Shown here in pieces: positions 1-20,491 of a DNA stretch of 25,388 nucleotides. The stretch is from a virus. Numbering within the stretch: the first letter of the stretch is position 1; the number at the start of each line of letters is the position of its first letter. The notes under the pieces are model-generated. The model saw nothing but the letters and a program-made list of their open reading frames with translations. It did not search any database and was not told where the DNA came from. The translations under genes and the position numbers were made by a program. The DNA lies in IMG/VR virus record IMGVR_UViG_3300028608_000075, positions 1-25,388 of that record; one strand, written 5' to 3'.

Positions 1-76
1 CTTGCGCCCATTGCGGAAAAGCCGGGCCGATGCCCCTCTTTTGCCCCACACCTTTCGACGAGTTTTCCGATCCCCG

Positions 77-133
77 ATGAATAAAGCACTCTCCGACCTG
101 TCCTCCCACACGCCGATGATGCAGCAGTACTAA
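77..133 (+). pseudogene. mutS: 5' fragment of mutS (mismatch repair), cut off at the prophage junction
   Basis: The plus strand reads ATG at 77 followed by 17 more codons, MNKALSDLSSHTPMMQQY, then TAA at 131-133. The block HTPMMQQY is the conserved start of MutS mismatch-recognition proteins (E. coli has the same eight residues near its N-terminus), and MNKA-SDLS is the Pseudomonas form as I remember it. Full MutS is about 850 aa, so only the first 2% is here. In intact MutS a hydrophobic or aromatic residue and a basic stretch follow the Tyr; here a stop does, and the following DNA no longer looks like mutS. The simplest reading is that a prophage inserted within or beside the 5' end of mutS, leaving this piece at one attachment site. 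Whether a complete mutS survives at the other prophage end cannot be seen. Confidence 0.8.
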
Positions 134-297
134 CGGAAACAGGCTGCAGGTCACGTTTCACAAAGGTATGCATTACGAGCTGTCTAAAACTCTAACCCGA
201 TTTAAGCGCGTTTCGGACCAATGAAACCGAGCAGGGTCGAGGTAGTTTTAGACAGCGTTTTCCCTTCTCCGGCGTCCTGCCGAACAATAACCAATCC
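134..297. other. Prophage end: non-coding stretch between the mutS fragment and the spanin genes
   Basis: No convincing gene is present between the mutS fragment and the Rz stop codon on either strand. The stretch contains the 13-bp inverted repeat described separately. As the outermost phage DNA it should hold one arm of the attachment site. I could not define the crossover core, because the other prophage end is outside the window. Positions 1-76, left of the fragment, look like the natural upstream region of mutS and carry no ORF that I could assign. Confidence 0.5.
179..256. repeat. Perfect 13-bp inverted repeat at the prophage end
   Basis: GCTGTCTAAAACT at 179-191 is repeated exactly in inverted form, AGTTTTAGACAGC, at 244-256, with 52 bp between the arms. 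Inside lies a smaller imperfect dyad (GTTTC...GAAAC, around 210-228). Neither side has a run of T long enough for an ordinary intrinsic terminator, and no flanking target duplication is visible. Its place between the last phage gene and the mutS junction suits recombinase or excisionase arm sites, or the 3' end structure of the late transcript. Its role is unknown. Confidence 0.65.
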
Positions 298-804
298 CTA
301 TTTTTGAAGCTCCCGCACATACGCCTGGCACGCCGCAAGCGCGATCAATCCTTGGTCGCCGGCGTCGGTGATGCCGATAATTCGTTGAGCATGCGCTGGG
401 TCAAGTTCGGCACGAACGGCTCCATGATCCACGCCGCCGGTGCCGGTGGCGGCAGGCACTGAACAGCCACTGCCTGAACCCTGGTCAAGGAGGACTGACA
501 GCCGCAGATCAGAAGTGGCAAGGCGATCGCGCAGGCGAGCCTGGTCTTTTTGGGCATTGGTCAAAGTCTCGTGGTGGGATTGGTCGCTGGCCGCCAGGCG
601 CTGCTCGAGAGCAAGACGCTTGTCCTGCTCGGCCTTTTGCGCGGCGGCGCCGACCATGGCCAACTGATTGAGGGTGTCGGTGTGCAACCGCGACTGTTCG
701 GCAAGCTGGGCACCGTATCGCCAGCCCTGAACCGTCCAGGCACTGAGAGCCCCGAGCATCACCAGCGCCAGTGCACCGGCAACCTTCCACGCTAGCGGGC
801 TCAA
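298..804 (-). CDS. Rz-like i-spanin (inner-membrane lysis protein)
   Basis: This 168-aa protein has one N-terminal membrane anchor (about residues 5-23, rich in A, L and V) followed by a periplasmic helical region rich in A, Q, E and R. That is the architecture of Rz-type i-spanins, which join an outer-membrane Rz1 lipoprotein to fuse the two membranes at the last step of lysis. The frame is open far upstream, but an AAGGA ribosome site 6 nt before a TTG at 804-802 marks the start. That TTG overlaps the endolysin stop (TTGA), giving translational coupling, and the protein then begins (M)SPLAWKVAGA. The Rz1 partner is encoded entirely within this gene in another frame. Family assignment rests on architecture and context; Pseudomonas versions may be catalogued under DUF2514. 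Confidence 0.75.
   Translation of the reverse strand: MSPLAWKVAGALALVMLGALSAWTVQGWRYGAQLAEQSRLHTDTLNQLAMVGAAAQKAEQDKRLALEQRLAASDQSHHETLTNAQKDQARLRDRLATSDLRLSVLLDQGSGSGCSVPAATGTGGVDHGAVRAELDPAHAQRIIGITDAGDQGLIALAACQAYVRELQK
345..557 (-). CDS. Rz1-like o-spanin lipoprotein, nested inside Rz
   Basis: This 70-aa protein begins MPKKTRLACAIALPLLICGC, a short basic start, a hydrophobic core and a lipobox (I-C-G-C) with the modified cysteine at residue 20. The mature part of about 50 residues is short and contains a proline-rich segment (LPPPAPAAW), as Rz1 proteins do. It lies wholly within the Rz-like gene in a shifted frame, as in lambda where Rz1 is embedded in Rz. The lipoprotein should sit on the inner leaflet of the outer membrane and bind the C-terminal end of Rz. 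The ribosome site before its ATG is weak, so translation may depend on ribosomes already reading Rz. Confidence 0.85.
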   Translation of the reverse strand: MPKKTRLACAIALPLLICGCQSSLTRVQAVAVQCLPPPAPAAWIMEPFVPNLTQRMLNELSASPTPATKD

Positions 805-1226
805 GGCACATCCTTGAAGAAGACATGCCCGCCCAGCTTCAGTGTCTGTTTCGCCTTCGCTGCCCACACGGGTGGCGTCTTCATGGCGATCGCGTAATAG
901 TGCGTGGCGCCGCCGGTGGGATCTGGCACCTTGCCGTCGATAACCTGGTCGGCCACGACTCGACACTGTGCCAGTTCGCGGAACGGGATCTGCTTCAGCC
1001 CGATCAGGAACTGATAGTTGGTGTCGGTCTTGTTCCAGCAGCTGAACTGGTACGGCCTTTGGCACACACTGGCATAGCCCTCCCCCCACCATGACTTTTC
1101 CTTTCCATCGAACACGCGATTGCGGATCGTCCAGGCCACGGCCACCTGGCCAGCCGTGGTTTCGCCTCGGGCCTCACCCCAAATCGTTCGCGCGAGGATG
1201 TCGCGGTCTTTTTCGGTAACTGGCAT
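801..1226 (-). CDS. SleB-like cell wall hydrolase (endolysin)
   Basis: This 141-aa enzyme resembles the Hydrolase_2/SleB family, which cuts the glycan strands of peptidoglycan. It shows the family's IWGEARGE block with the likely catalytic Glu at residue 18, the following AGQVAVAWTIRNRV, and the C-terminal GGATHYYA motif. No signal peptide or membrane segment is visible, so export should depend on the holin. The frame also offers a GTG three bases upstream, but GGAG lies 7 nt before the ATG at 1226, which I take as the start. An intrinsic terminator (1242-1267) sits immediately upstream. The gene is followed directly by the spanins and is about 20 kb from the holin. Confidence 0.85.
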   Translation of the reverse strand: MPVTEKDRDILARTIWGEARGETTAGQVAVAWTIRNRVFDGKEKSWWGEGYASVCQRPYQFSCWNKTDTNYQFLIGLKQIPFRELAQCRVVADQVIDGKVPDPTGGATHYYAIAMKTPPVWAAKAKQTLKLGGHVFFKDVP

Positions 1227-1241
1227 CACTTTTCTCCAGGC

Positions 1242-1297: not shown

Positions 1298-2014
1298 TTA
1301 GGCTGGTCGCGCTTCTGGGTCAGCGACGATCACCGGGATAGCAGGCGCAACCGGCCACACCGGCGAGGCATGCCAGCCAGGCTGTTTGGTCACCTTCCCC
1401 AGGGCGAATTTGTATCCCTTCCATGCCGCCAAGCTGGCCACCAACGCCGCCTGCTCGGCCACGTCTTCTTCTGTTGCCTCCCCGGCATCGATTCCATAAC
1501 CGATTGTGTCTATCCGGTCTTGAATCCTAGCGATCTGCGCGATTGACTGGGCGTTGCGCGCGGCAAGCTCAGTCTTCATCAACACCAGATGCTCCGCATC
1601 GGCGGCAGCATCCTTCATAGCTTTCGTGATGCACCGGTCCCAGTGAATGACGCCAGTCGCGGTAGTCTCCGGAATAGGCGGGAGACCAGGATAATTGCCA
1701 TCGCCATCAGGGAGTGGTTGCGGGAACTCTATGCGGCCGTCCGGCACATTCAACAGCGGATCGGGAAATGCCTGCTCAGGGCTGTAGTTCCATGGGTTTG
1801 GCAGATTCAAAGAAATTACCAGGTGCCCATTCAAGCGCTCAACGGTGGCCGTGTCCGGAAACCACTCGCTGGCAACCGAGCCAAAGGGCAGCGTGTCACC
1901 CTCGCTCAATGGCGTGAAATCAAACAGCTCACCATTGATAGCCAAGCTATCACCGTCCTTCACCACAACCAGATCAACATCATCCATGCGCTTGCCGTAA
2001 AGATTGATCTGCAT
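1298..2014 (-). CDS. Tail fibre assembly protein (chaperone)
   Basis: This 238-aa protein fits the Caudo_TAP/tail fibre assembly family in its C-terminal half: a helical region rich in A and E, then AAWKGYKFALGKVTKQPGW and a WPVAPAIP tail. The N-terminal half is Pro- and Gly-rich and variable, as in relatives. Such proteins help trimeric tail fibres fold or attach. It directly follows the fibre gene with a TAATG overlap (fibre stop TAA 2016-2014, start ATG 2014), and a GGGAGG site inside the fibre gene lies 8 nt upstream. An upstream in-frame GTG at 2023 is less likely because it lies inside that ribosome site. Confidence 0.75.
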   Translation of the reverse strand: MQINLYGKRMDDVDLVVVKDGDSLAINGELFDFTPLSEGDTLPFGSVASEWFPDTATVERLNGHLVISLNLPNPWNYSPEQAFPDPLLNVPDGRIEFPQPLPDGDGNYPGLPPIPETTATGVIHWDRCITKAMKDAAADAEHLVLMKTELAARNAQSIAQIARIQDRIDTIGYGIDAGEATEEDVAEQAALVASLAAWKGYKFALGKVTKQPGWHASPVWPVAPAIPVIVADPEARPA

Positions 2015-2982
2015 TACTTCCACCTCCCGAAAGCCATTAAGTCCATCTCAACAGTGCCTGATACGCTCACATGCGTGAACACGGCCCAAGTTCCCCAACT
2101 AGACAGCGACTGCAACGTCTGCAAGCTGCCCCAGCCACCGCCCGAAGATTGAGAGAAGCCGCATGGGACGATGATGGGCGTTTCCCCGACGAAGTTGACC
2201 GGGAAGCCAGCTGCTTGCGATAACACCAGGCTTTTGAATACAGAGCCAGCTACTGATGTTCCTCCGCCTGCGGTCATAACTGTCCTGGCTATCATCTGGC
2301 CATTGGCGTATTTCCAAGCCTGCCCGCCAGAGTTACTGACGTACTCCATCAATGCCCCGCCAGGCAGCCCCGCCGTATCGAACACCGATCCCACAACATT
2401 TGACCGATCGTAGGCGAATGCAGGCGACTTACCATTGGCCGGTGTGTAGCGCAGGCACAACCAATTGCCGCTACCAAGACTCACAAATTCAGCCGTGTCG
2501 TTGACGGCCGTGGTTATGTTGGCCGCGGTTGGCAGGATCAGTGACGTCACGTTGTAGGTCAGGGTCAGGCTGGCGAGAAAGCGAACTGTGCGCCGGGCGC
2601 CGGCGGCAATGGTTCCAAGTCCGGTAATTGGCGTCGTACCGCTGATGTACACCACATTTGACGTAGCGACCCCGATATCGGTCGTCGTCGCCGACGCGAT
2701 CGTCTGAGGTGTAGCGTCATTAATTGGACCGGTCAGCGTGCCGCCGCTGATCAGCAGATAGCTCAACGCGTCGAGCGGCCCCATATCAATCCAGGCTGAG
2801 TTGGCGCTGTTGCGACGTCTCAGCCTGTTCCCGGTTGTGTCCCCCCACCATTGGCAGGGAAAGGTTGTAGGGGGAGACAGCGGACCAACGCTGTTCGACG
2901 CCAGCGCCTGTAGGGCGTTGTTCATATCCGCCCGGAATGTTGCCCCGGGCCCGTTGGCAACATCCATATCGTGCTGCGACAT
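2014..2982 (-). CDS. Tail fibre / receptor-binding protein
   Basis: This 322-aa protein opens with a module common at the start of Pseudomonas phage fibres: MSQHDMDVANGPGATFRADM, then NNALQALASN, a QWWGDTT block and a SANSAWIDMG block. This N-terminus is thought to attach to the tail. The middle is rich in T, A, G and V, as in beta-structured fibre shafts. The last 100 residues, with many Ser, Gly and Trp, are probably the receptor-binding tip. The start lies 3 nt after the gene J stop, with AAGGGG inside the end of J as ribosome site. The fibre assembly gene overlaps its stop codon. Confidence 0.75.
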   Translation of the reverse strand: MSQHDMDVANGPGATFRADMNNALQALASNSVGPLSPPTTFPCQWWGDTTGNRLRRRNSANSAWIDMGPLDALSYLLISGGTLTGPINDATPQTIASATTTDIGVATSNVVYISGTTPITGLGTIAAGARRTVRFLASLTLTYNVTSLILPTAANITTAVNDTAEFVSLGSGNWLCLRYTPANGKSPAFAYDRSNVVGSVFDTAGLPGGALMEYVSNSGGQAWKYANGQMIARTVMTAGGGTSVAGSVFKSLVLSQAAGFPVNFVGETPIIVPCGFSQSSGGGWGSLQTLQSLSSWGTWAVFTHVSVSGTVEMDLMAFGRWK

Positions 2983-2985
2983 AAA

Positions 2986-5900
2986 TCAGTACCCCTTAGA
3001 GATGTAGTCAATCGAGCGGCCTGACTGGGCGACCCCGCTGGAATTGCGAATGAAGACCGTGAAACCCGTTACGGTCTTTGCAGAAACATCGAAGTAGTCC
3101 CCAGGCGACAAACCTTGCGCGGTGAGGCTGACGGCGGGTGTGCCTTTGAAAGGCGGTGAGTAGCTGACCGCCAGGCCGGTCACTGGCACGGGGATGTCGT
3201 TCCCGCTTTCAATCCGATCAGGCATGTCGATCACGACTTCCAATGTGGTGACATCAATCCAGTTGGATGGCTGAGTCACCGAGCCGCGAAGCTGGAAGTC
3301 GTACTGTCGAGCCCGGTAGTCTCCAACCACAAAAGGCTTCCAGGCCGACCAGACTGCAGGCGACACATCGGATGTGCGCACCCACAGTGAAAGCGATGCA
3401 CCGTTCGGTGGATCACCGTCGAGACTGATCAACGAATCAAAGTCGGCAATGGTGTCGACGTAAGTCCCATCGTCATAAAGCGCTGCCACCACATTGGCCG
3501 TCAGCCGGCAGTCATAGACGGAGCCAAGATCAGCCGGCGCAGCGAAGCTGTAAGTCATCGACAGCGAAGATCCTCCGAACTTGTCGATTTCGCCCAATAC
3601 CGCGTCGACGTCTGCCACATCGTCAAACAGTCCATTAGCGGCCATTTTCAAGACGCCGCCGCCCGCCGCCGCGTTGACCACGGCACCGGTAAAGGCAGGC
3701 GACTCGGTGATTGTCAGGACAACGTTTGCAGGCAGTGGTACTTGCGCGTCTGACCAGACCTCTATTACCGGCCCACCAACACCCGATGAGTCGACCGCCC
3801 GCGCCAGGTATTTCCCGGGTAGCAGCGACACGACGGTGGACGTCGACCGGCCTGCCACTTCGGTTAGTGGCAGAGCTGAGTCCCACGTCGCCGAGATGCT
3901 GCGCGAATGGCGGATGTTGATGCTGCCGCCGAGCTTCACATCGAGCTCGGGTACCGGCTCCCACGCCAGCGTGGCTACGCTGTTGATCACATCAAGCCTG
4001 AGCCCCACAAGCGCCGAAGGCGGAGCCAGCAGAGCCTGAGCGGTGTAAGTCTGAATCGATGCAGGGCCAGAAAGCCCCAGCACCGATTTCGGCGTGATAC
4101 GCAGTGACCACAATCCTGACGAAGCCGAGTCGAAATCGATGCTCGGTGTCGCCACTTCACCGAAGTACTCCCAGTTCCCGCCAGGCTTCATTACTTCGAC
4201 TTGATAACGCATGGCACGCGCCGGCGGTGTCCAGCTCACTGTGAGGCGAGCTGCCGCCAAACCTGTACCCGTGTCGTAAAGCGACTCAAGAAACGCCAAC
4301 TGACCAATTGCAGCAGGCGCACTCAGGTTTACGTTGCTGATCGGGTTGTCGACATCTGGCGTGCCGTACTCGATCTGGTTGAATTTATCCGGGTCGTAAG
4401 CCACCGCACTGATCGCATAGGTGCCGTCGTCACCCTCACTGACACCGACTACACGGAACTTCTGATTGTCCAACGCTGCTGTTGAAAAAATCCAAGGTGC
4501 TGTTGCAAGTGGTGCAGGTGACAGTGGCGGCGATACCGTGATCGATGTGGCGCCAGCGCTGGCAGTCACAGAAACCGTCGCATAGTTGCCGTTGGGCATC
4601 ATTACGCCAACGACGCCGGTGCCGCCAACCCCGAGTGGAGCATCGAGCAACAGGGTGGATCCAGTAGTCCCTGCCAGCAACCGGCCGCCATTGCGAGCAC
4701 CGGCCCTGTTCGCATCTGCCACTTCGATGACATCGCCCGGCAACGGAATAGCACCGTCGGCGCCCACTGCAAACGTTACGGCTTCACTTTCTGCATAGAG
4801 CAGCCAGCGGCCAAGACGCCGAGCTTGTCCCTTCGACGTGCAGCCAATAGCCACAACATCGCTTTGCTGGATCCTGTTCCATTTGGCGATGAGCTCAGGG
4901 CGCTCGACCAGCTCGATGGACTGTTTGTATTGCTGCTGCGGATCGTTCCAGGTGACAGCCGCTACGTTGTAGCGTTGGTCGGAAGCGACAGATTGGTAAT
5001 TAAACTCGCCACCAACTACGGTGGAGTTGTTGAACAAGTAGCGACTGGAGCGCGGGGCATCTTGCACAGCCGTCAGAGAACCGCCAGCCCAAAAGCAAAT
5101 CGCCCGGAACACCGAAACCAGGTCGTTGACCAACTTCCATGCATCTTGCTGCGAGGTCAGCGCAATGTTGCATGTGAATCGAGGTTCTACCCCCCCGTAT
5201 CCATTCGGCACCAGCACATCGCAGTACTGCGCAATGCTGTACAGCGCGTATTTATCGATCAGCGTCGAATCGAGCAAACCACCCAACCCGTAACGGGTAT
5301 TGGTCAGCACGTCATACCAGACCCAGGCCGGGTTATCCGTCCAGGCGCGAACAAAGGTGCCGTTCCAAGACCCAGTGTAAGTTCTGCTCTGGGGATCGTA
5401 GTTGCTCGGGACCAGCACTTTGATGCCCGACACCAGGAAAGACATGCGCGGGATGCTGGCGAACTGTTGGGCGTCGATTGAAATGCCCAGCAGTGCGGTA
5501 TTTGGGTAGCGAAGTTTCTCGTCCCAGATCAGCGTAAATGAATCAAAAAAGGTGCGGTTCTGGATGGCCGCGCTAACCGAGTCTGGAGACAGCCTGGTCA
5601 GCCTGATAAAACGGGTTTCGCCACCCGAAGGATACAAGCGCAGGTAGTACGACAGCTGCGTACGGCTCATGGTTTTACCGCTGATGGTCAGATCGAAACA
5701 CAGTGGCAGCCATGCGCCAGCGCCGACCTTACCCTCAATGCGGAACATAGCCGTCGAACCGTTGGTGTCACCGTTCTGGGTGTTCTGCTCGGAAAATTGA
5801 GGAACGCTCACCGTTACGCGGACAGCATCAACATCCACATCATTAATGGCGCGCTCGATTGCCACGCCCGCTTTCAGCTCGACCCCAACCGACTGTTCCG

Positions 5901-6195
5901 CTTCAAGCCCGGTGAGAGGCATGTATGACTGCCACTGCGTGCCATTACGGACGTCGATGCTGAAGGCCGAGAAATTGAGGCTCAAGTCCTCATTGCGTAA
6001 AGGCACATCATCGAAAAAAACGCCTTTGTCGCCACCGGCAATCCCGAGGATTTCGCCCTCGGAAATTGCGTGAAGGATCCGCACATGCTGGCGCGAGCGA
6101 AAGCTGTCCGGGGCTTCTACTGCTGCGCGTGCAGAACCACCTCCACCGCCCCCCTTCCCCCCGCCGCCGCCTCTTCCGACAATTACTTCGCTCAT
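2986..6195 (-). CDS. Tail tip / host specificity protein, lambda J-like
   Basis: At 1069 aa this matches the size of lambda J (1132 aa). It begins with a glycine-rich leader (residues 8-20), followed by HVRILHAISEGEILG, the family's start of the hub domain. Further on are conserved J blocks such as YPNTALLGI, SRTYTGSWNGTF, a TRYGLGGLLD block, ALYSIAQYCDVLVPNGYGG and GCTSKGQARRLGRWLLYAE. Fibronectin type III-like segments come after about residue 600, and a C-terminal region of about 250 aa is less recognisable. J closes the tail tip and contributes to host binding. The start is the ATG at 6195, overlapping the gene I stop as ATGA; the open frame extends 7 codons further but without support. 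Confidence 0.93.
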   Translation of the reverse strand: MSEVIVGRGGGGGKGGGGGGSARAAVEAPDSFRSRQHVRILHAISEGEILGIAGGDKGVFFDDVPLRNEDLSLNFSAFSIDVRNGTQWQSYMPLTGLEAEQSVGVELKAGVAIERAINDVDVDAVRVTVSVPQFSEQNTQNGDTNGSTAMFRIEGKVGAGAWLPLCFDLTISGKTMSRTQLSYYLRLYPSGGETRFIRLTRLSPDSVSAAIQNRTFFDSFTLIWDEKLRYPNTALLGISIDAQQFASIPRMSFLVSGIKVLVPSNYDPQSRTYTGSWNGTFVRAWTDNPAWVWYDVLTNTRYGLGGLLDSTLIDKYALYSIAQYCDVLVPNGYGGVEPRFTCNIALTSQQDAWKLVNDLVSVFRAICFWAGGSLTAVQDAPRSSRYLFNNSTVVGGEFNYQSVASDQRYNVAAVTWNDPQQQYKQSIELVERPELIAKWNRIQQSDVVAIGCTSKGQARRLGRWLLYAESEAVTFAVGADGAIPLPGDVIEVADANRAGARNGGRLLAGTTGSTLLLDAPLGVGGTGVVGVMMPNGNYATVSVTASAGATSITVSPPLSPAPLATAPWIFSTAALDNQKFRVVGVSEGDDGTYAISAVAYDPDKFNQIEYGTPDVDNPISNVNLSAPAAIGQLAFLESLYDTGTGLAAARLTVSWTPPARAMRYQVEVMKPGGNWEYFGEVATPSIDFDSASSGLWSLRITPKSVLGLSGPASIQTYTAQALLAPPSALVGLRLDVINSVATLAWEPVPELDVKLGGSINIRHSRSISATWDSALPLTEVAGRSTSTVVSLLPGKYLARAVDSSGVGGPVIEVWSDAQVPLPANVVLTITESPAFTGAVVNAAAGGGVLKMAANGLFDDVADVDAVLGEIDKFGGSSLSMTYSFAAPADLGSVYDCRLTANVVAALYDDGTYVDTIADFDSLISLDGDPPNGASLSLWVRTSDVSPAVWSAWKPFVVGDYRARQYDFQLRGSVTQPSNWIDVTTLEVVIDMPDRIESGNDIPVPVTGLAVSYSPPFKGTPAVSLTAQGLSPGDYFDVSAKTVTGFTVFIRNSSGVAQSGRSIDYISKGY

Positions 6196-6815
6196 GCCGG
6201 GATAGCCTCCGCCCAAGTGCCAACCGCAATAACGCTCGAGCCAACCAGATGGGTGCCGTAAACGAGAGGCACAGGGAGTCCTTGCTGTGTCGAGTTGAAC
6301 GCGCCATTGAACAGGTAGCTCGGCTTGTTTTCGCTTTCAGCTTGCTCTGCTTGGCTGCCAGTTTTCGGCACTGGGGTGAGCATTTGCACAACCCCACCAA
6401 TGATCATGGCAATACCGACTTTTGCCAGGATTCCACCCAGCGGGGCGGCCCCACCGAAACTCAGGGTGCTCACAAAGGCACCAGCAACGATCAGGGCAGC
6501 CCCCAGAACAACTTGAAAAAGGCCACCGTTCTTGCTGCCAGCGATGATAGGGACGATGCGAATTTCGGTCGTTCCGCTTAATGCAAACCCGTCCTCTCCA
6601 ACGTTTTTGCGGTTACGAAAAATTGCATAACGCAGGCCGCGTCTCGCAGAGTCACGAATGAAATCTTCAAACCCGATGATGGTGTGCTTCAGGGCGCTGA
6701 ACGCCTCGCTGGCTGTACCTGTTTCCAGAAGGCGAACATGCTTGCGTCCGAAGGCTTGGGCCAAGCTGCCAGACAGCAAAATGGTGGTCATAGGCTGAAC
6801 GTTGGCAGCGCACAT
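6192..6815 (-). CDS. Tail assembly protein, lambda I-like
   Basis: This 207-aa protein corresponds to lambda gpI: an N-terminal ubiquitin-like domain (LLSGSLAQAFGRKHVRLLET, then SEAFSAL, IGFEDFI) and a strongly hydrophobic Gly/Ala-rich segment (about residues 105-145). After that comes a C-terminal stretch with QQGLPVPLVYGTHLVGS, typical of the family. It helps tail tip assembly together with K. I chose the ATG at 6815 because GGAG lies 6 nt upstream, whereas the later ATG at 6791 has no ribosome site. The SD is 8-bp complementary to part of the terminator directly upstream, so translation may be gated (see the terminator entry). Confidence 0.87.
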   Translation of the reverse strand: MCAANVQPMTTILLSGSLAQAFGRKHVRLLETGTASEAFSALKHTIIGFEDFIRDSARRGLRYAIFRNRKNVGEDGFALSGTTEIRIVPIIAGSKNGGLFQVVLGAALIVAGAFVSTLSFGGAAPLGGILAKVGIAMIIGGVVQMLTPVPKTGSQAEQAESENKPSYLFNGAFNSTQQGLPVPLVYGTHLVGSSVIAVGTWAEAIPA

Positions 6816-6821
6816 ACTTTT

Positions 6822-6848
6822 CTCCGGGCAATAAAAAACCGCCCGGAG
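6822..6848 (-). promoter_or_regulatory. Possible SD-masking hairpin before tail gene I, exclusive with the terminator
   Basis: On the minus strand CTCCGGGC (6848-6841) is perfectly complementary to GCCCGGAG (6829-6822), with an 11-nt loop. The second arm contains the GGAG ribosome site of gene I. The first arm overlaps the upper stem and loop of the intrinsic terminator (6833-6855), so both hairpins cannot form at once. This is seen directly; regulation is an inference. Confidence 0.5.
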
Positions 6849-6855
6849 GCGGTTT
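6833..6855 (-). terminator. Intrinsic terminator after the lipoprotein gene
   Basis: On the minus strand AACCGCC, loop TCCG and GGCGGTT make a perfect 7-bp stem (8 bp with the flanking A-T pair) followed by T residues. It lies 16 bp after the lipoprotein stop and just before the tail gene I ribosome site. It would end a private lipoprotein transcript and stop late transcription not protected by Q. Confidence 0.85.
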
Positions 6856-6871
6856 GATGTTTTTTTGTTAC

Positions 6872-7207
6872 TTAAATGCAGGCTTTTGCGGCATCTTTCC
6901 ATCCGCTTGTTGCGGACCAGTCCATGGGTAGGAAGACCCGAACTGATGACCCTTTGTCGGCCTTGTCGATAATCGCCAACGCTACAACGCCAGTCATGTC
7001 GGACGACGCCGCAATCCTGTAACCATTTTCACTTTCGATTGAGCTGGTGGATGAGTTGTAAGCTTGCCACTTTGGACCCAGGCATTGCGCCAGCTGTTGT
7101 GGCGACTTTTCAGATTTACCCGAATATGCCGGCTGGTCTTTCTCAAGTCCTGATGTCGTGCACCCCGCCACAACAATGAGTGTCACGGCCGTTATAGCTT
7201 TGCGCAT
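6872..7207 (-). CDS. Small lipoprotein in the tail operon (moron candidate)
   Basis: This 111-aa protein starts MRKAITAVTLIVVAGC, a clear lipoprotein signal with lipobox V-A-G-C and the lipidated cysteine at residue 16. The mature part is polar, with one central Cys (QCLGPKWQAY) and one near the C-terminus (KACI), which could pair. I do not recognise the family. The gene sits between K and I, where lambda has no such gene, with a 58-bp leader, a strong GGAGG site 8 nt before the ATG and a terminator just downstream. That is the layout of a moron, an added gene often expressed in the lysogen. Surface lipoproteins of this kind in other phages (N15 Cor, T5 Llp) block superinfection; a similar role here is only a guess. 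Confidence 0.75.
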   Translation of the reverse strand: MRKAITAVTLIVVAGCTTSGLEKDQPAYSGKSEKSPQQLAQCLGPKWQAYNSSTSSIESENGYRIAASSDMTGVVALAIIDKADKGSSVRVFLPMDWSATSGWKDAAKACI

Positions 7208-7231
7208 CGCTGAGCCTCCAGTGTTTTGGCG

Positions 7232-7240
7232 ACTCTAACA
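7232..7240 (-). promoter_or_regulatory. Weak candidate extended -10 promoter for the lipoprotein
   Basis: The 58-bp gap before the lipoprotein contains TGTTAGAGT on the minus strand, a TGn-extended -10 element (TAGAGT matches TATAAT at 4 of 6). No good -35 element lies 16-18 bp upstream. The position, 25 bp before the start codon, suits a private promoter, but the match is weak. Confidence 0.25.
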
Positions 7241-7265
7241 GGGAAATTACGCACAAATACAGGGC

Positions 7266-8075
7266 CTATATGCGCGACACTCCATGGAATGTCCCGACCA
7301 CAGGCCCCATACCTTCAAAGCGAACGACACAATCTTTGATAGTCCTGCGATCTTCATCTGGGGCTTTAACGCCGATGTACCGCATGATGTGCGTTGTGCA
7401 CTCCCGGTAGGCCCGGCCGTATACCTCCTTGCAACTGAGGCGCCCGTAGAGGTGATGCAACAGCACGTCACCTTCCAGCCAGATCGCGCCATGGCACGGC
7501 GTCGTGCTGCCGATCGCCATGACGATCAAATCGCCTTCCTTTGGCGAATCGACAGGCACAAACCCGGTTTTGGCAAAGTTATCGACATACAGGTTCTCGC
7601 CGTTATTCCACCAGTCATCCTTGCGATGGAAGTCCGGCAGGGTAATGCCGAGGACTTGCCGATAATAGTCGCGGACAAGGGTGTAGCAATCGATGATCCC
7701 ATGGACAAACACCCGGCCTTCCAGCGGGAGTTCACCCTTGGCCGGCATTTCGCACCAGGTGGCAACGCCCTCTTTCAAGCCAACGATCCACCAGGCCAAA
7801 CGACTGACCGCATGACTGGCGAGGTCGTGAATGCTTGGCTCAGGGCCAGCGTCAGGATGGGAGTGCACCACAGCGACGATGTCCCCCAAGTCTTCTGCTG
7901 CGGCATAGTCCTCCGGGTGCAAAATGAAGTGATCCGGCTCTTCGGACTGATTGCGACACGAAACATACTGTGGCTTGCCGCGCACGCTGACGACCAGGCC
8001 GCACGCTTCTCTCGGGTACTCGGCCAAAGCATGAACTTCGGCATCTGCCAGGCACTTCTGGAATAAAACATTCAT
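7266..8075 (-). CDS. Tail tip assembly peptidase, lambda K-like (JAMM + NlpC/P60)
   Basis: This 269-aa protein has two recognisable enzyme domains. Residues 1-110 form a Mov34/JAMM metalloprotease-like domain with Glu23 (EACGLVV) and the zinc motif H71-S-H73-P...S81...D84. Residues 120-235 form an NlpC/P60 peptidase-like domain with Cys130 (DCYTLVRDYY) and His195 (CHGAIWL). Lambda K has this pair, and K with I helps form the tail tip; peptidoglycan cutting during DNA injection has also been proposed. The start is the ATG at 8075, two bases after the gene L stop. The open frame continues upstream through gene L and is not real there. The 35-residue tail after the P60 domain is of unknown role. 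Confidence 0.9.
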   Translation of the reverse strand: MNVLFQKCLADAEVHALAEYPREACGLVVSVRGKPQYVSCRNQSEEPDHFILHPEDYAAAEDLGDIVAVVHSHPDAGPEPSIHDLASHAVSRLAWWIVGLKEGVATWCEMPAKGELPLEGRVFVHGIIDCYTLVRDYYRQVLGITLPDFHRKDDWWNNGENLYVDNFAKTGFVPVDSPKEGDLIVMAIGSTTPCHGAIWLEGDVLLHHLYGRLSCKEVYGRAYRECTTHIMRYIGVKAPDEDRRTIKDCVVRFEGMGPVVGTFHGVSRI

Positions 8076-8077
8076 CG

Positions 8078-8770
8078 TCAAAGCCTCGGAACAAGAGCAA
8101 TGCCAGGGAACCCGCCAAAGGGAAGCTCGCCATTCACACCAAAGCGCAGCTTGCAGCCCGTTACGGTGCGACTGCATTGGTCCTGCGCAGGGTCAGTGGT
8201 TGGGCGATTGGTATAGTCGGCAACCGGGCCGCCGGCATAACTGCACTCGCCGGACCGGTAGGCCCACATGCACGTCCCGGCAATGATCTGGCGTCTCGGC
8301 AGCTTCACCCCCTGAAGATCAAGTGGGGAGCCCAACTCAAACTCAATTGCCAGTGGTGTTTCGCTCGCTTTGCGCGTGATGAACCAGGTTTCGACGGGAT
8401 ACTCCTCGGCTGGGTTGGCCGTTGGGTTTCCAGAAGTGAAGTTCACTGCGTCCAGGTACTTGACCAGTGTCCGATGGCGCTTGAGCTTCACGCCCAGTAG
8501 GTCGTCGTACTCTCGGCATAGCGCCGATACCGTGCCGCCGAAATTACCTACCTGAAGCTGCGGTCGCGCTGGCGATCCCTGACTGGGTGTGGCGAACTCA
8601 ACGGCATTAATCGGCCAAGGGGTATAGGTGTTGCCCTGCCAGATGACCGAGCCCAAATTTTCATTGGTCCCGGCATGGAAGCGAATCGTCTGGTCAGGCA
8701 ATACGAGCTCAAACCCCTCCCATATGACCAACCCAGTGGCCAGCGAGAGCTGGCCTTTCAACTCGCTCAT
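8078..8770 (-). CDS. Minor tail protein, lambda L-like, with iron-sulfur cysteines
   Basis: This 230-aa protein belongs to the phage tail tip L family. The N-terminal two thirds include QLSLATGLVIWEGFELVL and PARPQLQVGNFGGTVSAL, typical of the family. The C-terminal part carries four cysteines at 167, 176, 199 and 206. As I recall, lambda gpL binds a [4Fe-4S] cluster through four C-terminal cysteines with the same spacing (9, 23 and 7 residues). L follows M with an ATGA overlap and precedes K by 2 bp, the same order as in lambda (H-M-L-K-I-J). Confidence 0.92.
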   Translation of the reverse strand: MSELKGQLSLATGLVIWEGFELVLPDQTIRFHAGTNENLGSVIWQGNTYTPWPINAVEFATPSQGSPARPQLQVGNFGGTVSALCREYDDLLGVKLKRHRTLVKYLDAVNFTSGNPTANPAEEYPVETWFITRKASETPLAIEFELGSPLDLQGVKLPRRQIIAGTCMWAYRSGECSYAGGPVADYTNRPTTDPAQDQCSRTVTGCKLRFGVNGELPFGGFPGIALVPRL

Positions 8771-9096
8771 TCGAACACCTCATCGAAAGTTGTCGACAGA
8801 CCCTGCACACCAAACGAAATGTCGGTTCGCGTCCATTCGCGACAAACAAAAACCCCGGCTGGTTGGCCGGGGTGGGTGTACTTAAACGCTTCGACAGCGC
8901 CCCTCGCAGACAGAAAGGTCTCGATGTCGCTAATTTCCTCAGTCAAGCGCGTGAATTTCAGGGAAAACTTGCGAGGTTTGCGATTGATCCCGGACGCCTG
9001 CCGCTGCTCGTAGTCATCACCGAATTTTATGACTTTGACAGTCGGCGCAACGGTTTTGGTGGCGTCATAGCTCGCGAGCCACGTGAACTCCAGCAT
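8767..9096 (-). CDS. Minor tail protein, lambda M-like
   Basis: At 109 aa this equals lambda gpM in size. It shows the family pattern: a short N-terminal strand region, VKVIKFGDDYEQRQASGIN (the gpM signature around F-G-D-Y-x-Q), and a beta-rich C-terminus with YTHPGQPAGVFVCREW. M joins the distal tail and is needed for tip assembly. It starts 9 bp after the tape measure stop with a strong AAGGAG site 5 nt before the ATG. An intrinsic terminator-like hairpin lies inside the gene (8848-8873). Confidence 0.9.
   Translation of the reverse strand: MLEFTWLASYDATKTVAPTVKVIKFGDDYEQRQASGINRKPRKFSLKFTRLTEEISDIETFLSARGAVEAFKYTHPGQPAGVFVCREWTRTDISFGVQGLSTTFDEVFE
8848..8873 (-). terminator. Terminator-like hairpin inside gene M
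   Basis: Within the M coding sequence the minus strand forms an 8-bp GC-rich perfect stem (ACCCCGGC with GCCGGGGT, 6-nt loop) followed by TTTTGTTTG. It has the form of a strong intrinsic terminator although it encodes THPGQPAGVFV. It may simply reflect a conserved Pro/Gly motif, or it may cut unprotected late transcripts. Confidence 0.6.
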
Positions 9097-9105
9097 GATT
9101 GCTCC

Positions 9106-11949
9106 TTACCCTGCGAGTTGTCCGCCATTACGGCGCGACGTTGCGATTTCCTGCCTCACTACAACCTTGATGGCCTCAGCAAGTCGCGCAGGGTCTGGCA
9201 TTGCCGGCCCTTCGTTGGCGTCGACATTCACCTCGATGATGACTTGGCCTTGGCTGCCGGTGCGTGTTGTTGACTCCCTTTGCGCAGCTCCGGAACCGCC
9301 CGTTGACTCAGATCCAGAAGCCAGTCCGACATACCCGCCATCGGCGTACCCACGCTTGTTCAGGCTCACCAGGTAATCTTTCATTCCCGGGCGATCCACA
9401 ACCTCTTTGCGGATTACAACTTCGCCACCATGGACGATGCCGGCCGGCTCATACTTTCCACCGTTGCCGGTGTAGCCGCCATCATCGAAGCCGTAAGCAC
9501 CCGCGTAATCGGTGGTGGTATAACCGCTAGCCGATGCTGCAGAGCCGACATTCTGGGCGCCGCCACCGAAGTAAGCGCCGGCGGCAGACGTAGCCAATCC
9601 GAAGAGTCCACTCAACGCAGACGAGCTGGCCTGGCGCACCGCGATACGAGCCATATCGGCCAGCACTGACTTGGCAAAGTCAGCGAACGACAGCTTGCCA
9701 GTCATGGCGAAATTGACGATCGCGTCCTCCATCGAGCTGAAGGCGTTGGCGAACAGGCTTTTACTCTGCGCCGCGACATTCGCAGCACTGTCCATGTAGT
9801 CCTGATATGCCGATCTCGCACCCAGCGACCAATCGGCCTGAGCGGCGTCCAGATCGTCGTAGTACTTGGTCTGCATGGTCAAGCGCTGGTCAAGCGCTGA
9901 CTCCAATGCTGCCGTTTCCTGTGCGTACAGGCCGTCGCTGATATCGCCTTTGTTGTGCTGTGACTCCAGACGATCCAGCTGCGACTGGTAGGACTGCTGA
10001 ATGCTCAGCTGCTCCTGCAAACGCTGCTTCTGCCGCTCTCCCAGCCCCTGCCCCGCCAGACTATTGCTCAAACCAGTCTGGGCGCTGGACAACTGACTGC
10101 TCAGATTCTCCTGAAAGGCGAGCAACTTCTTCGCTTCGTCCGCCGCTTTCTTTCGGAGCTCAACTTCCGTTTCAAGTGAGGCATTGCGTTTCAGTTGCGC
10201 GGTGATCAATGCCTCGCTGGACAGAAGCGACTTCTGGTCAGCCGTCAAAACCTGCTTGGTTTTGATATCGGCGATCTGCTGCTCCCACTTCACCAATGCC
10301 TCGGCATTTTGGCCAAGGGTTTTGGTCTTTTCACCTTGGGCACCGATCAGCGCATCCTGAGCCTGAAGCGCAGCATATTGCTGCCGCGCCTGATCCAGCG
10401 CTCGGGTCCCCGCCTCCTCGGTGTATTTTTTTACCGCTGGGGCCTTGGGCTCCTTGTAAATAGGATTTTCACGAATAGCCTTTAGCGAGGCGGACTCAGC
10501 CTCTGGCGTAATTTTGTAGCCCGCCAAGCGCGCGGCGTTTATGCGCTTCTGTTCGTCTTCCAGCGCCTTGTCCATCTTCTGCCGTTTGGTGAAATTGGCT
10601 TCAACAGACTTCTGGAATGCCTCGTAGGCGACTTGACCCTCGCGCTGGATGCGAGCGTTTTCACCCTCAGTTTTGCCTTGAGCGGCAAGTGCATCTCGCT
10701 GCTTGTTGAGCAGCGCCAGCCGTTCCTCAAGAAACTTGGTCGACTCGCTGTTTTTCCCCAGGTCATCGGGAAACATTTTCGCCAGGACGCCTTCCTGACG
10801 ATCATTAATGAGCTTCTTGGTGTTTTCGATCTGCTGATCAAGTGATTGCTCGCGACCAACACCGAGAAGTTCGTCCCAGCCTTTTTTGGCGGCGCCGGCC
10901 AACGTCTGCCACGCCGATTCGATGGTGCCGAGGTTTTGCTTGATCTTCGCCGCGCGCTCCGACAGCGCACTGGCATAGGCGTCTTCGGCCATTGTCGCAG
11001 CCGCTTGTTTGTCGCCATTTTCCTGCAGTGCACGCACCTGCTCATACACCGACGCGGTCAGGAAATTGTATTTCTGATTCAGAACGCCAAGGGTTTTGAC
11101 CGGGTCTTCTGCGATCTTCGCAAACTCATCGACCGTTGTTTTCGTGGCTTTACCAGTGGCTTTTTCGTATTCAATCGCCGAGGTCGCAATTTTCTGGAAG
11201 CTGGCACTGGCAATGTTTCCGGTGCCAGCCAACTGAGCCAGCACCTCTGCGGCCTTGCCAGTGGTCCCTACCGACTTGCTGATTGTTTCCGCCATGAAGG
11301 CCAGTTGAGAGGAGCTGGTCCCGGCGGCATTACCTGTTGATACCAGCGCCACCCGGAATGCATCGGACTCTTTCGACCCTTGATAGTAGGCCAGAGCCAG
11401 TGTTGCAGAAGCTGCGGCGGCGGCAGTGAGCGGATTTACCAACCCCAGAACGTACCCGCCGAGCGCTTTTGCCGCAGGCCCGGTACCACCAAACATATCC
11501 TTGAGCTGGCCTCCTTGTTGCAGGAAAACGCTGAACGGATTTTGACCCGCCTGTAACGAGGTCACAATGTCGGTAAATTGAGCCGGCACACCTTGCAAGG
11601 CAGCGGCGTAGGCCTTCGCAGACCTGCCCCCTCTCAGCATGATTGCATCGGTTTGAGTCAAGGCATTGCGCTGGTCAGCTAGCTTGGCAAGGTAGTCTTT
11701 GAAATCGACGTCGTCCAAACGCCCGGCGGCGCGATGGGCGCGCAACTGGGCTTCCATTTTGTCCAGACGACCATAGGCGGCAATTACTGGGTCAATCTGG
11801 CCAACCAGTTTATCCAGCTGCCCAGCCTGATAAGCGGCCTCTTTGGTCGCTGATTTGAGCGCACGTTGTGCCCGGTCCATGCCCTTTTCAAAGCCGCCGG
11901 TGTTCGCCACCAGGTCGACTGTCAGTTGGCCAAGTGAATCAACTGCCAT
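9106..11949 (-). CDS. Tail tape measure protein, lambda H-like
   Basis: This 947-aa protein sets tail length and is ejected with the DNA. Residues 1-35 (MAVDSLGQLTVDLVANTGGF...) are the usual start. Residues 95-155 hold the conserved lambda H block with GVPAQFTDIVTSLQAGQNPF and VFLQQGGQLKDMFGG. A hydrophobic segment at about 164-190 is the expected membrane-active part, long coiled-coil stretches rich in A, E, K and Q fill the middle, and the C-terminal domain includes KLSFADFAKSVLADMARIAV. At about 0.15 nm per residue the predicted tail is close to 140 nm. The gene follows the G/GT chaperones, with the ribosome site GGAGG overlapping the GT stop codon. Confidence 0.95.
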   Translation of the reverse strand: MAVDSLGQLTVDLVANTGGFEKGMDRAQRALKSATKEAAYQAGQLDKLVGQIDPVIAAYGRLDKMEAQLRAHRAAGRLDDVDFKDYLAKLADQRNALTQTDAIMLRGGRSAKAYAAALQGVPAQFTDIVTSLQAGQNPFSVFLQQGGQLKDMFGGTGPAAKALGGYVLGLVNPLTAAAAASATLALAYYQGSKESDAFRVALVSTGNAAGTSSSQLAFMAETISKSVGTTGKAAEVLAQLAGTGNIASASFQKIATSAIEYEKATGKATKTTVDEFAKIAEDPVKTLGVLNQKYNFLTASVYEQVRALQENGDKQAAATMAEDAYASALSERAAKIKQNLGTIESAWQTLAGAAKKGWDELLGVGREQSLDQQIENTKKLINDRQEGVLAKMFPDDLGKNSESTKFLEERLALLNKQRDALAAQGKTEGENARIQREGQVAYEAFQKSVEANFTKRQKMDKALEDEQKRINAARLAGYKITPEAESASLKAIRENPIYKEPKAPAVKKYTEEAGTRALDQARQQYAALQAQDALIGAQGEKTKTLGQNAEALVKWEQQIADIKTKQVLTADQKSLLSSEALITAQLKRNASLETEVELRKKAADEAKKLLAFQENLSSQLSSAQTGLSNSLAGQGLGERQKQRLQEQLSIQQSYQSQLDRLESQHNKGDISDGLYAQETAALESALDQRLTMQTKYYDDLDAAQADWSLGARSAYQDYMDSAANVAAQSKSLFANAFSSMEDAIVNFAMTGKLSFADFAKSVLADMARIAVRQASSSALSGLFGLATSAAGAYFGGGAQNVGSAASASGYTTTDYAGAYGFDDGGYTGNGGKYEPAGIVHGGEVVIRKEVVDRPGMKDYLVSLNKRGYADGGYVGLASGSESTGGSGAAQRESTTRTGSQGQVIIEVNVDANEGPAMPDPARLAEAIKVVVRQEIATSRRNGGQLAG

Positions 11950-11952
11950 AAA

Positions 11953-12264
11953 TCACCTCCTAACCGACTGCAGCAGACGCATGATGTCGTCCGCCGAACC
12001 TACGACCGGTTCTTGCTCAACATCCCGAATGGGCAGGAAATCGGAAAGCTCGGCCGACCCACCATTCGCACGATTGAGTACGGTGGCGAGCAAAGCAAAG
12101 CCCTGCTCGATACGCTTACCAAGGTTGAGTGAACCGGTTTGCCTGACGTAGGACATCCACGAAATAGCCTCGGGGTAAGTGAGGCTGGCCTTCGCTTCCG
12201 CAATTGATCGCCCGCCAATGCCGTTGAGCACCAGCTCATGCCAGAACTCATCAGCGGGTTCTAT
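11953..12264 (-). CDS. T extension of tail assembly chaperone GT, made by -1 frameshift
   Basis: This frame has no supported start of its own. Reading -1 from the A8 run at the end of gene G gives IEPADEFWHELVLNGIGGRS at once, then IAEAKASLTYPEAISWMSYV. That is the typical GT domain of lambda-like phages, so the real product is a G-T fusion of 222 aa (119 + 103). In lambda G and GT bind the tape measure protein and recruit the tube protein during tail assembly. The open frame contains a GTG at 12231 that could be mistaken for a start, but it has no ribosome site and would drop the conserved EFWHELVLNG block. Confidence 0.85.
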   Translation of the reverse strand: MEPADEFWHELVLNGIGGRSIAEAKASLTYPEAISWMSYVRQTGSLNLGKRIEQGFALLATVLNRANGGSAELSDFLPIRDVEQEPVVGSADDIMRLLQSVRR

Positions 12265-12620
12265 TTTTTTTCAGCGTCTTCCTTACTGACACCGTTCGCC
12301 TGCTGAATGGCAGCCAGCAGAGCGATGGTGAGCTCCGCGGTGAGCGGGCCATGACCGGACTCTTCGGAGCCAAGGATATCTTCAACCGTGAAGACCGTCT
12401 CGCCGGCTTCGTTGCAGACACTGGTTGCGATACGGTGTGCCGTGGCGTCCGCGCCTTCACGCTGTTCTTCCCAACGCTTGGTCAGCGTATGAAATGAGTC
12501 CTGGCGGACGTAGATTGACGCCTTTTGCACATTGCCGTCGGCGTGCCAGCTGATGTCTTTTTTCACAGGCAGCGCGACGAACGCGCCGGCTGCCTTCAAC
12601 GCATTGATACTGAGTTCCAT
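12261..12620 (-). CDS. Tail assembly chaperone G
   Basis: This 119-aa protein lies between the tube and tape measure genes, the invariant place of tail assembly chaperones. It starts MELSINALKAAGAFVALPVK with an AAGGA site 6 nt before the ATG. A central helical region follows, and then an acidic C-terminus ending SKEDAEKK at the slippery run and TAG stop. Most ribosomes should stop here to make G; a small part should shift to give GT. The protein is a chaperone and is not expected in the virion. Confidence 0.85.
   Translation of the reverse strand: MELSINALKAAGAFVALPVKKDISWHADGNVQKASIYVRQDSFHTLTKRWEEQREGADATAHRIATSVCNEAGETVFTVEDILGSEESGHGPLTAELTIALLAAIQQANGVSKEDAEKK
12264..12271 (-). promoter_or_regulatory. 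Slippery A8 sequence for -1 ribosomal frameshifting
   Basis: The last codons of G read GAA AAA AAA TAG on the minus strand, containing the heptamer A-AAA-AAA, a standard -1 slippery site, directly before the stop. After a -1 shift the next codons are ATA GAA CCC and the frame stays open for 103 residues through the conserved T domain. Confidence 0.85.
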
Positions 12621-12629
12621 GAGGTGTCC

Positions 12630-13370
12630 TTAAGGGGTGATGACTTTCGGTACCAGAACGGGATCGCCGGACACTTGAATGCCAACGGTCGACTTCACCA
12701 CGTCGTTCAACGCGAAGCTGAACGGGAAGCTGTTCATGTAGCCTTCGAAGGTGATCCAGGTGCGAGTGGTCGGTAGATTGAAATCGACCTCCTCGTGGAC
12801 CACTGCGGTGGCCGCCGCACCGGTACCGGCACCGCCGGTGAGCCCAACAGTCGGAGCACTGGTGTAGCCGGTGCCTGGGTTGGTGATGGTGAAACCAGTG
12901 ACAGCCCCACCGGATACACTGGCGGTTGCGGTCGCACCAGTGCCACCGCCACCGGTGATGGCCACCGTCGGTGCGCTGGTGTAGCCGGTGCCGCCGGCGG
13001 TGAGATTCAACTCAGATAGCCCGCCGCCCAGAGCGACGGTTGGGGGAATACCAACATCATCTCCCGCGCCGTTGATGAATCGACCATCCGAAAGGCCAAC
13101 TGCCCACAGCAAACTGGTGCCGGCGGTTTTCAGTTGATGTAGGCGGATGTGCGCTGCGTTTTGTGGATCGATGTTGATACCAAACGACGCCGAACCAGGT
13201 TCAGCCAAACCGGCTTCATAGGTACGGGCCTTGGAGTTCAGGCAGGTGGTTTCGATCTGCGCAATGGTGGTGTCGATGCCGTCCAGCGAAGTGAAGCAGC
13301 CAACGACGAGAATGGTGCTGCTCGCCGGATCGATCGCGTAAAGATCGGTGCCTTGGGTTTTAATGGTCAA
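12630..13370 (-). CDS. Major tail tube protein with an inserted repeat domain
   Basis: This 246-aa protein resembles lambda-like tube proteins at both ends: [20 protein letters not shown] and [20 protein letters not shown] at the start, and [20 protein letters not shown] near the end. Between them, residues about 121-191 hold two copies of a Gly/Thr-rich repeat with a period of 39 residues ([10 protein letters not shown] at 127 and 166, each followed by GG-GTGA-ATA). Lambda V carries a surface Ig-like domain; here the added domain is of another type and sits inside the fold. The start is TTG at 13370 with GGGGAG 6 nt upstream. No ATG or GTG lies between an in-frame upstream stop and this TTG. 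It must polymerise into the tail tube under the control of GT and the tape measure. Confidence 0.88.
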
Positions 13371-13382
13371 TTGATACTCCCC

Positions 13383-13399
13383 GATTTTCTTGGAAAATC
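13383..13399 (-). promoter_or_regulatory. Hairpin just before the tail tube ribosome site
   Basis: The minus strand carries GATTTTC, loop CAA and GAAAATC, a perfect 7-bp stem directly before GGGGAG, the SD of the tail tube gene. Together with the upstream terminator it gives the tube gene a structured leader. Confidence 0.5.
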
Positions 13400-13415
13400 A
13401 CTGTTGGGCGGGCAT

Positions 13416-13437
13416 AAAAAAACCCGCCGGAGCGGGT
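13416..13437 (-). terminator. Intrinsic terminator between the DUF3168 gene and the tail tube gene
   Basis: On the minus strand ACCCGC, loop TCCG and GCGGGT form a perfect 6-bp stem running into seven T residues (the first inside the stem). It separates the head-tail joining genes from the tail tube gene. Confidence 0.85.
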
Positions 13438-13455
13438 CGTTCTTTTTGGTGCGGT

Positions 13456-13821
13456 CTACTGGCTCACAAGCCAGGCGACATCGAAACCTTTGCGGTAGTT
13501 GTGCGTGTCGTCGTCACGGGTATCGATGCCGAAACCGGTGATGTAGGCCCGCTGGGCAATCGCGCGCCGCAACGCAACCACCACAGCGTCAGCCGAGGAG
13601 GCGGTTTCGGCATACACGTCGACTTGTAGCCCGTATCGGTCCGTGTCCGGCACGCCATTGACGTAGTTGATCGGCGACCCGCTGACCACCTGCCACACTG
13701 CGTAGGGTTTAGCGGTGCCGTCCGGGGCTTCACCGTGCGGATACAGGCGAGTCGGCCCGACTCCAAGCAACGCGGTAACCGCTGGACTGGCGGCGCACAC
13801 CGCAAAAATGGGCGCGATCAT
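13456..13821 (-). CDS. Tail completion / tail terminator protein (DUF3168, gp17-like)
   Basis: This 121-aa protein fits DUF3168: an early PAVTALLG segment, TRLYPHGEAP, a central YAVWQVVSGSP strand and YGLQVDVYAETASSADAVV. After these come an RRAIAQR helix and a final strand FDVAWLVSQ. Proteins of this family cap the tail tube and join it to the head. The gene overlaps the gp10-like gene as ATGA and ends just before a terminator and the tail tube gene, its usual place. Confidence 0.85.
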   Translation of the reverse strand: MIAPIFAVCAASPAVTALLGVGPTRLYPHGEAPDGTAKPYAVWQVVSGSPINYVNGVPDTDRYGLQVDVYAETASSADAVVVALRRAIAQRAYITGFGIDTRDDDTHNYRKGFDVAWLVSQ

Positions 13822-14264
13822 CCATCCACCCCCAACTTAATCAGCTGATATTTGGCCGAGCTCAAAAACTCCCTGAACAAAGCCTCACGGTTGTTGGCCA
13901 ACGCGGGCCTGAGAAACGGTTTTGCCCGATTCTTTTCGGTACCCAACTCAACCCACCACCAGTAAAACGTGTTTCCGCCCTTCTGGCCGCGCTTGCGCAT
14001 TCGCACGCCCACGGAGATCACCACAGCGCCGACTTCCTCGCCGAGCGCCTTGCGTTCAATCATCGCCAGGTTGGCAGGGATGAAGTTGGCGGTTTCTGGG
14101 TCATCGATGCGCGTGGCGCGGTCTTTCGCGTCCAGCAACACGATCTCCATAGCATCCTTGGCGGCAGGTAACACCACCTTGCGACGCATCTCTTCGGTCA
14201 GGCTCTTGAATCTGGCGGACAATTCGTCGGCGCCCTTGAGGCTGTAAGTGACCCATTCAGTCAT
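13818..14264 (-). CDS. HK97 gp10-like head-tail joining protein
   Basis: This 148-aa protein resembles the HK97 gp10 family. It begins with GADELSARFKSLTEEMRRKV, then a helical VVLPAAKDAMEIVL segment, a variable loop, and the hallmark WWWVELGTEKNRAKPFLRPA (F/Y-x-x-x-E-x-G-T...PFLRPA). The product works at the head-tail interface, where its relatives are needed for tail completion. It overlaps the closure protein gene by 8 bp and the next gene by ATGA, indicating coupled translation. Confidence 0.9.
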   Translation of the reverse strand: MTEWVTYSLKGADELSARFKSLTEEMRRKVVLPAAKDAMEIVLLDAKDRATRIDDPETANFIPANLAMIERKALGEEVGAVVISVGVRMRKRGQKGGNTFYWWWVELGTEKNRAKPFLRPALANNREALFREFLSSAKYQLIKLGVDG

Positions 14265-15161: not shown

Positions 15162-15165
15162 GCCT

Positions 15166-15393: not shown

Positions 15394-15421
15394 GATTCAA
15401 ATCCTCATGCAGGAAGAGGCC

Positions 15422-15439
15422 GACGGGCCGAAGCCCGTC
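15422..15439 (-). promoter_or_regulatory. Hairpin with TTCG tetraloop after the capsid gene
   Basis: The minus strand has GACGGGC, loop TTCG and GCCCGTC, a perfect 7-bp stem with an especially stable tetraloop, 13 bp after the capsid stop codon. No T-run follows, so it may be a 3' mRNA stabiliser or processing barrier for the capsid message and not a terminator. Confidence 0.55.
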
Positions 15440-15451
15440 TGGCTCGTGGTA

Positions 15452-16666: not shown

Positions 16667-16684
16667 GCTTTCATTTCTCCAGAT

Positions 16685-16709: not shown

Positions 16710-16732
16710 GGAATTACGCGATGGCGCGAGGC

Positions 16733-20458: not shown

Positions 20459-20491
20459 TCCCACTCCAGACTGGACAGCCAGATCATTCGA

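Follow-up and report, generated by a model that had tools for sequence, protein, structure and literature searches.

A Pseudomonas prophage junction inside mutS, with the mismatch-repair gene probably rebuilt from a phage-supplied start

Main finding

The window, i.e. the whole stretch of DNA analysed, is a 25,388-base IMG/VR virus record that stops short of the second prophage boundary. Its first bases are best read as the attL of a lambda-like Pseudomonas prophage which integrates in mutS at the codons for HTPMMQQY, with mutS rebuilt at attR by a start that the phage supplies, a reading to which a probability of about 0.9 is given. Integration would be site-specific, at these codons, with a tyrosine integrase of ca. 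330 amino acids, encoded at the prophage end outside the window, exchanging strands in a core of ca. 24 bp common to attB and attP. The phage half of attP would bring its own start codon and the mutS codons up to the core, so that after integration an 18-codon orphan with the host start would stay behind at attL, and at attR mutS would acquire a new N-terminus and a new upstream region from the phage. The right end would then consist of a MRPRKKDRHLPACMY-type integrase followed by ...HTPMMQQYWRLKNQ in frame, and expression of mutS in the window's host would be set by phage sequence.

Related elements contain all the parts of this arrangement, namely attP, attL, attR, an intact mutS and an integrase upstream of it on the mutS strand. 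By analogy, the right end of the window prophage would resemble theirs, with mutS restored in frame and scarless excision, the excision being expected in frame because the core has the same reading frame on either side.

The left junction within mutS

The features of the junction are as follows.

1 to 76, plus strand: host mutS leader, 5' of the original start codon (75 of 76 bases identical to the leader of the intact mutS in contig L059)
77 to 130, plus strand: orphan host mutS codons 1 to 18, MNKALSDLSSHTPMMQQY (from the frame and identity to L059)
106 to 129, plus strand: putative strand-exchange region, att core CCACACGCCGATGATGCAGCAGTA (by analogy with attL and attR of Pseudomonas sp. 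ANT_H4 and attP of phage phiAH14a)
131 to 298, plus strand: phage attP arm, its first codon TAA (homologous arms in relatives; same position in the free phage phiAH14a)
179 to 191, plus strand: inverted-repeat arm 1, GCTGTCTAAAACT, probable integrase arm-type site (GTCTAAAA at equal core spacing in relatives)
244 to 256, plus strand: inverted-repeat arm 2, AGTTTTAGACAGC, probable integrase arm-type site (from the inverted repeat and the arm comparison)

The ATG at 77–79 opens the orphan frame (77–130), which is closed by TAA at 131–133. Positions 1–130 are identical at 129 of 130 bases to L059, a Pseudomonas contig with an uninterrupted mutS, in which the gene continues as TGGCGCCTGAAAAACCAGCA and the bases after the equivalent of position 130 are TGGCGC; this contig is a natural picture of the empty site. 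As the identity takes in both the host leader and the 18 codons, the match to mutS is not a chance one, an alternative that the sequence-only reading of this DNA had named and which is hereby ruled out. From 131 on the DNA is unrelated to mutS, with 131–298 resembling no part of the gene, and the junction falls at 130/131, immediately 3' of the HTPMMQQY codons. The earlier description of 18 mutS codons running into TAA and then phage DNA is confirmed by the frame, the identity to L059 and the phage arm from 131, and its placing of the prophage at mutS codon 18 is borne out by the position of the junction.

The arm at 131–298 is related to those of L204 (84% identity), Pseudomonas sp. ANT_H12B (80%), L084 (78%) and L077 (74%). 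Relatives have a common layout of ca. 51 variable bases, GTCTAAAA, ca. 52 bases and an inverted GT(T/A)TTAGAC repeat, which in the window forms a perfect 13-nt inverted repeat (179–191/244–256). The GTCTAAAAC / TTAGACAG repeats are probable candidates for integrase arm sites. Strict patterns of the exact window junction gave no match in viral contigs, because the bases 3' of the core differ among phages.

Two further observations concern the surroundings of the core. On the reverse strand of L204, the first 420 bases contain the att core CACTGATGCAGCAGTAC followed by the arm that resembles the window's, with non-mutS DNA before the core, which may mean that the element is in tandem, that the site is a secondary one or that the DNA was rearranged. 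LexA-like boxes (e.g. CTGTATACGCATACAG) lie just inside attL in L040, L075, L077 and L210, before a small gene adjoining attL; the window has no such boxes, its Rz gene directly abutting the arm.

The contiguous attachment site of phage phiAH14a

The record of phiAH14a (KU708004), an induced and sequenced phage whose attP carries a mutS start, has a mutS-type integrase at 262–1251 and an Rz gene that ends at the record's last base. Its integrase is 75% identical to the P. frederiksbergensis query. The contiguous attP (nt 1–262 of locus L285) precedes the integrase and consists of the phage start ATGACCGACCTCTCCAGCCACACCCCAATGATGCAGCAGTAT followed by the arm, with the phage's own mutS start reading MTDLSSHTPMMQQY and the att core at nt 169–183 on the minus strand. 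Base by base, this attP agrees with the ANT_H4 attR on the left side of the core and with the ANT_H4 attL on the right side, the arm being identical to that at the ANT_H4 attL over 126 bases. When attP, attL and attR are compared, the strand exchange maps to CCACACCCCAATGATGCAGCAGTA, which corresponds to positions 106–129 of the window. A second case of the core running into the arm, and not into mutS, is contig L227.

Because integrase, attP and arm occupy one end of the phiAH14a record and Rz the opposite end, the arm and the att site belong to the phage. The sequence-only reading had proposed that a copy of the mutS 5' end may be part of the attachment site, and the mutS start carried within the phiAH14a attP upholds this. 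The free genome with its contiguous attP also lends indirect support to excision as a circle. The searched text of the phiAH14a paper (PMC4936722) mentions neither mutS nor attP.

mutS and the second prophage end in relatives

The left-junction pattern was run over 84,980 species genomes and gave 8 matches, comprising 5 in Pseudomonas, 2 in Betaproteobacteria (Advenella and an Alcaligenaceae bacterium) and a chance pattern match in Nitrosopumilus (L206), which was discarded. All seven real cases have exactly one mutS above the family cut-off, full length and without stops. In ANT_H12B, ANT_H4, Advenella and the Alcaligenaceae genome a single contig carries both ends, at a distance of 16 to 55 kb; they fall on different contigs in P. 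lactis, P. frederiksbergensis and P. parakoreensis, where their pairing rests on single copies. The integrase in the Pseudomonas cases has 325–332 amino acids and lies upstream of mutS on the same strand, either 80–81 bp or ca. 1.1 kb before the core. The arrangement in Advenella (L207/L222) and the Alcaligenaceae bacterium (L212/L223) is alike, with an integrase ca. 50% identical to that of Pseudomonas. The first mutS 5' pattern used matches host starts but not attR starts (MTDLSS...), and so has no bearing on restoration.

The mutS integrase was also found in 9 of 299 Pseudomonas genomes drawn, six of them new to the comparison. Each of the six new genomes has one intact mutS, and five have exactly two copies of the core, 35.6–57.0 kb apart. 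Taken together, the 13 genomes with such an element (7 by attL pattern and 6 by integrase) all carry one full-length mutS with no internal stop, and in most complete relatives the right end lies 35–57 kb from attL.

Among viral contigs, 58 loci carry the mutS integrase. At 40 of these mutS follows the core, with no interruption of the frame from the phage-supplied start onwards, as in attR; 2 others are attP-like, and 16 end too early or are without a core. At 25 of the 40 attR loci the same-strand integrase gene ends 80–86 bp short of the core, and at the other 15 the gap is 0.5–2.4 kb. An attL is also present in 15 of the 26 viral contigs tested, with spans, given for 13, of 20.5–57.3 kb.

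Translation of the phage-supplied copy

Departures from the majority base were tallied by codon position (1/2/3) across 40 distinct phage-side sequences. The eight codons preceding the core gave 18/21/96, the core itself 0/0/16 and the adjoining arm 147/155/125. The bias towards position 3 points to coding constraint, which would be expected from translation of the phage copy as MutS; the counts are uncorrected for relatedness, and pairing with the host attB may account for part of the constraint.

In one clade (L227, L232 and L225), and likewise in P. frederiksbergensis, the only starts available to the restored mutS are GTG or TTG, which could mean a low MutS output in these relatives. Promoter scans, among them one of the integrase-mutS region of one relative, gave nothing above chance for mutS; read-through from the integrase is offered purely as a suggestion for the source of restored mutS transcription. 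In the attR of L229 and L268–L276 an arm-type repeat, ATGTCAAATAGACAG (e.g. L229) or ATGAGTATTAGACAG, contains the phage-supplied mutS start codon. Integrase binding at such a start-overlapping repeat could gate translation or transcription of mutS.

Phage genes of the window and the internal recombinase

The following phage genes of the window all lie on the minus strand.

298 to 803, minus strand: Rz spanin gene abutting the att arm (start approximate; stop at ca. 298–300), with the same order at the phiAH14a end
345 to 557, minus strand: Rz1-like lipoprotein gene inside the Rz gene (from gene calls)
801 to 1229, minus strand: endolysin, a cell wall hydrolase, which adjoins attL also in ANT_H12B, ANT_H4, L077, L084 and G010
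1298 to 20914, minus strand: tail, head and terminase genes of a lambda-like siphovirus, including the six that follow
2986 to 6216, minus strand: J
9106 to 11949, minus strand: tape measure
15452 to 16666, minus strand: capsid
17415 to 18719, minus strand: portal
18716 to 20464, minus strand: TerL
20492 to 20914, minus strand: TerS
22803 to 24167, minus strand: internal tyrosine recombinase, 454 amino acids (PF00589), distinct from the mutS integrase

The 454-amino-acid recombinase was considered as the mutS integrase and rejected, since blastp gave no significant match between the two (the best covers 14–15 residues, E ca. 0.02) and its relatives are internal in their genomes. In PseuP_224 a recombinase 71% identical to that of the window lies between the replication genes and Q, with a separate integrase at the genome end, and among 34 contigs with the mutS integrase, 11 carry a relative of the window recombinase as well. 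Close relatives of this recombinase occur in hundreds of viral contigs (598 encoding stretches), and in the window it adjoins Q and a VRR-NUC-type gene.

G311 provides a syntenic complete case, with attL at 25,726, the internal recombinase at 50,268–51,611 on the opposite strand, then the integrase, and attR at 66,463, i.e. 24.5 kb from attL to the internal recombinase within an attL-attR span of 40.7 kb. Since the window has a similar spacing from attL to the recombinase and an equal orientation, the early genes, the mutS integrase and attR should all lie in the part that it lacks. Two in-frame TGA codons are present in the G311 copy of this recombinase.

Alternative explanations

Viewed alone, the left end does resemble a truncation of mutS at codon 18 with TAA, in which case a headless mutS would lie at the right end and the lysogen would be a permanent mutator until the phage excises. 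Against this, none of the 13 element-bearing genomes has a broken or second mutS, the 40 attR sequences are in frame and the codon-position bias indicates that the phage copy is translated, making such a truncation very improbable. The loss of mutS that the sequence-only reading had left as an option thus finds no support, given the single intact gene in all 13 genomes and an attP that brings its own mutS start. It is less probable still that a non-phage island occupies mutS with the phage nested inside it. Chu et al. describe mutS elements of varied content (PMC5296598), but in the phiAH14a record integrase, attP and arm lie together at the end opposite to Rz, and the window Rz abuts the arm. 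A chimeric assembly, joining a mutS fragment to an unrelated phage contig, might be suspected of a virus record whose assembly history is not given, yet like junctions with equal arm spacing and adjoining lysis genes recur in several independent contigs and genomes, leaving this the least probable of the explanations weighed. By analogy with the relatives, then, disruption of mutS is unlikely, and its restoration with a new start and upstream region is the best reading.

A tentative possibility, and the likeliest of those set beside the main reading, is that mutS is restored while lysogeny alters its expression, the gene lying downstream of the integrase and arm sites, so that the mutation rate would differ between lysogen and cured strain or during induction. 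The short same-strand distance of 80–86 bp between integrase stop and core in 25 of the 40 attR loci is consistent with this, as are the arm-type repeats holding the mutS start codon in some phages (e.g. ATGTCAAATAGACAG in L229) and the switch between two regulatory regions proposed by Chu et al. (PMC5296598). The gap of 0.5–2.4 kb in the other 15 loci and the scarless excision reported for P. putida F1 (PMC5296598) argue the other way. The stronger version, in which mutS is read as a gene downstream of a phage integrase with arm sites at or over its start, and both the capacity for mismatch repair and the mutation rate would depend on the state of the phage (lysogeny, induction, integrase level), is doubtful.

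Relation to known systems

Mobile elements in mutS at HTPMMQQ, some of which are prophages and which include that of P. putida F1, were described from hundreds of Beta- and Gammaproteobacteria as elements that supply a start and promoter region for mutS (Chu et al., 2017, mBio, PMC5296598). The window prophage fits these elements, the basic phenomenon having been in print since 2017. An insertion in the HTPMMQQ motif and an orphan host-derived mutS start 5' of the element are both found in the window, and its relatives also have an element-supplied mutS start and an integrase adjacent to mutS. Excision is reported as scarless in P. putida F1, E. coli 536 and B. multivorans CF2, whereas in V. 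splendidus it leaves a 2-bp frameshift that produces a hypermutator (PMC5296598); unlike the latter, relatives of the window prophage predict scarless excision.

Among individual Pseudomonas phages, phiAH14a (KU708004, PMC4936722) is akin through its mutS-type integrase, a contiguous attP with a mutS start and lysis genes at the other end; at the DNA level only its lysis region matches the window. PseuP_224 (OP795451, PMC10305613) has the gene order of the window, from internal recombinase to Q, holin, terminase, head and tail; its internal recombinase is only 71% identical, and the likeness drawn here is one of gene order.

The parallel drawn by the sequence-only reading with S. pyogenes mutL holds in so far as the SpyCI islands (PMC3430984, PMC4689407) are also phage-like DNA at the 5' end of a mismatch-repair gene; otherwise it is loose. 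Transcription of mutL is reported to be blocked while the island is integrated (PMC4689407), whereas an element of the window type supplies a new start and rebuilds a coding sequence predicted to be intact both integrated and excised.

The mutS-cinA interval, a prophage and tailocin site which the same reading had invoked, proves to be a different locus, upstream of mutS (PMC2647930; L001), while the window junction is inside the coding sequence; as a candidate it was set aside for lying on the wrong side of the mutS start. The mutS-cinA tailocins and prophage 01 of P. fluorescens (PMC2647930; L001) occupy this neighbouring locus, between cinA and an intact mutS, and have related lysis genes. 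On one contig of 36,978 bases (L020 and L284), a tailocin-type lysis gene region lies beside a 20.5-kb mutS-inserted element, which suggests that the two sites can be occupied together. GInt islands (PMC5385486) were also considered and dropped, having a ginABCD operon with three integrases as opposed to the one integrase beside the restored mutS in relatives; the GInt paper makes no mention of mutS.

Biological meaning

For a temperate phage, a highly conserved housekeeping gene can serve as the site of attachment, the function of the gene being kept by means of the replacement start that the phage carries. The phage-derived sequence upstream of mutS makes a link between lysogeny and mutation rate testable in isolates, e.g. 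Pseudomonas sp. ANT_H4 and ANT_H12B.
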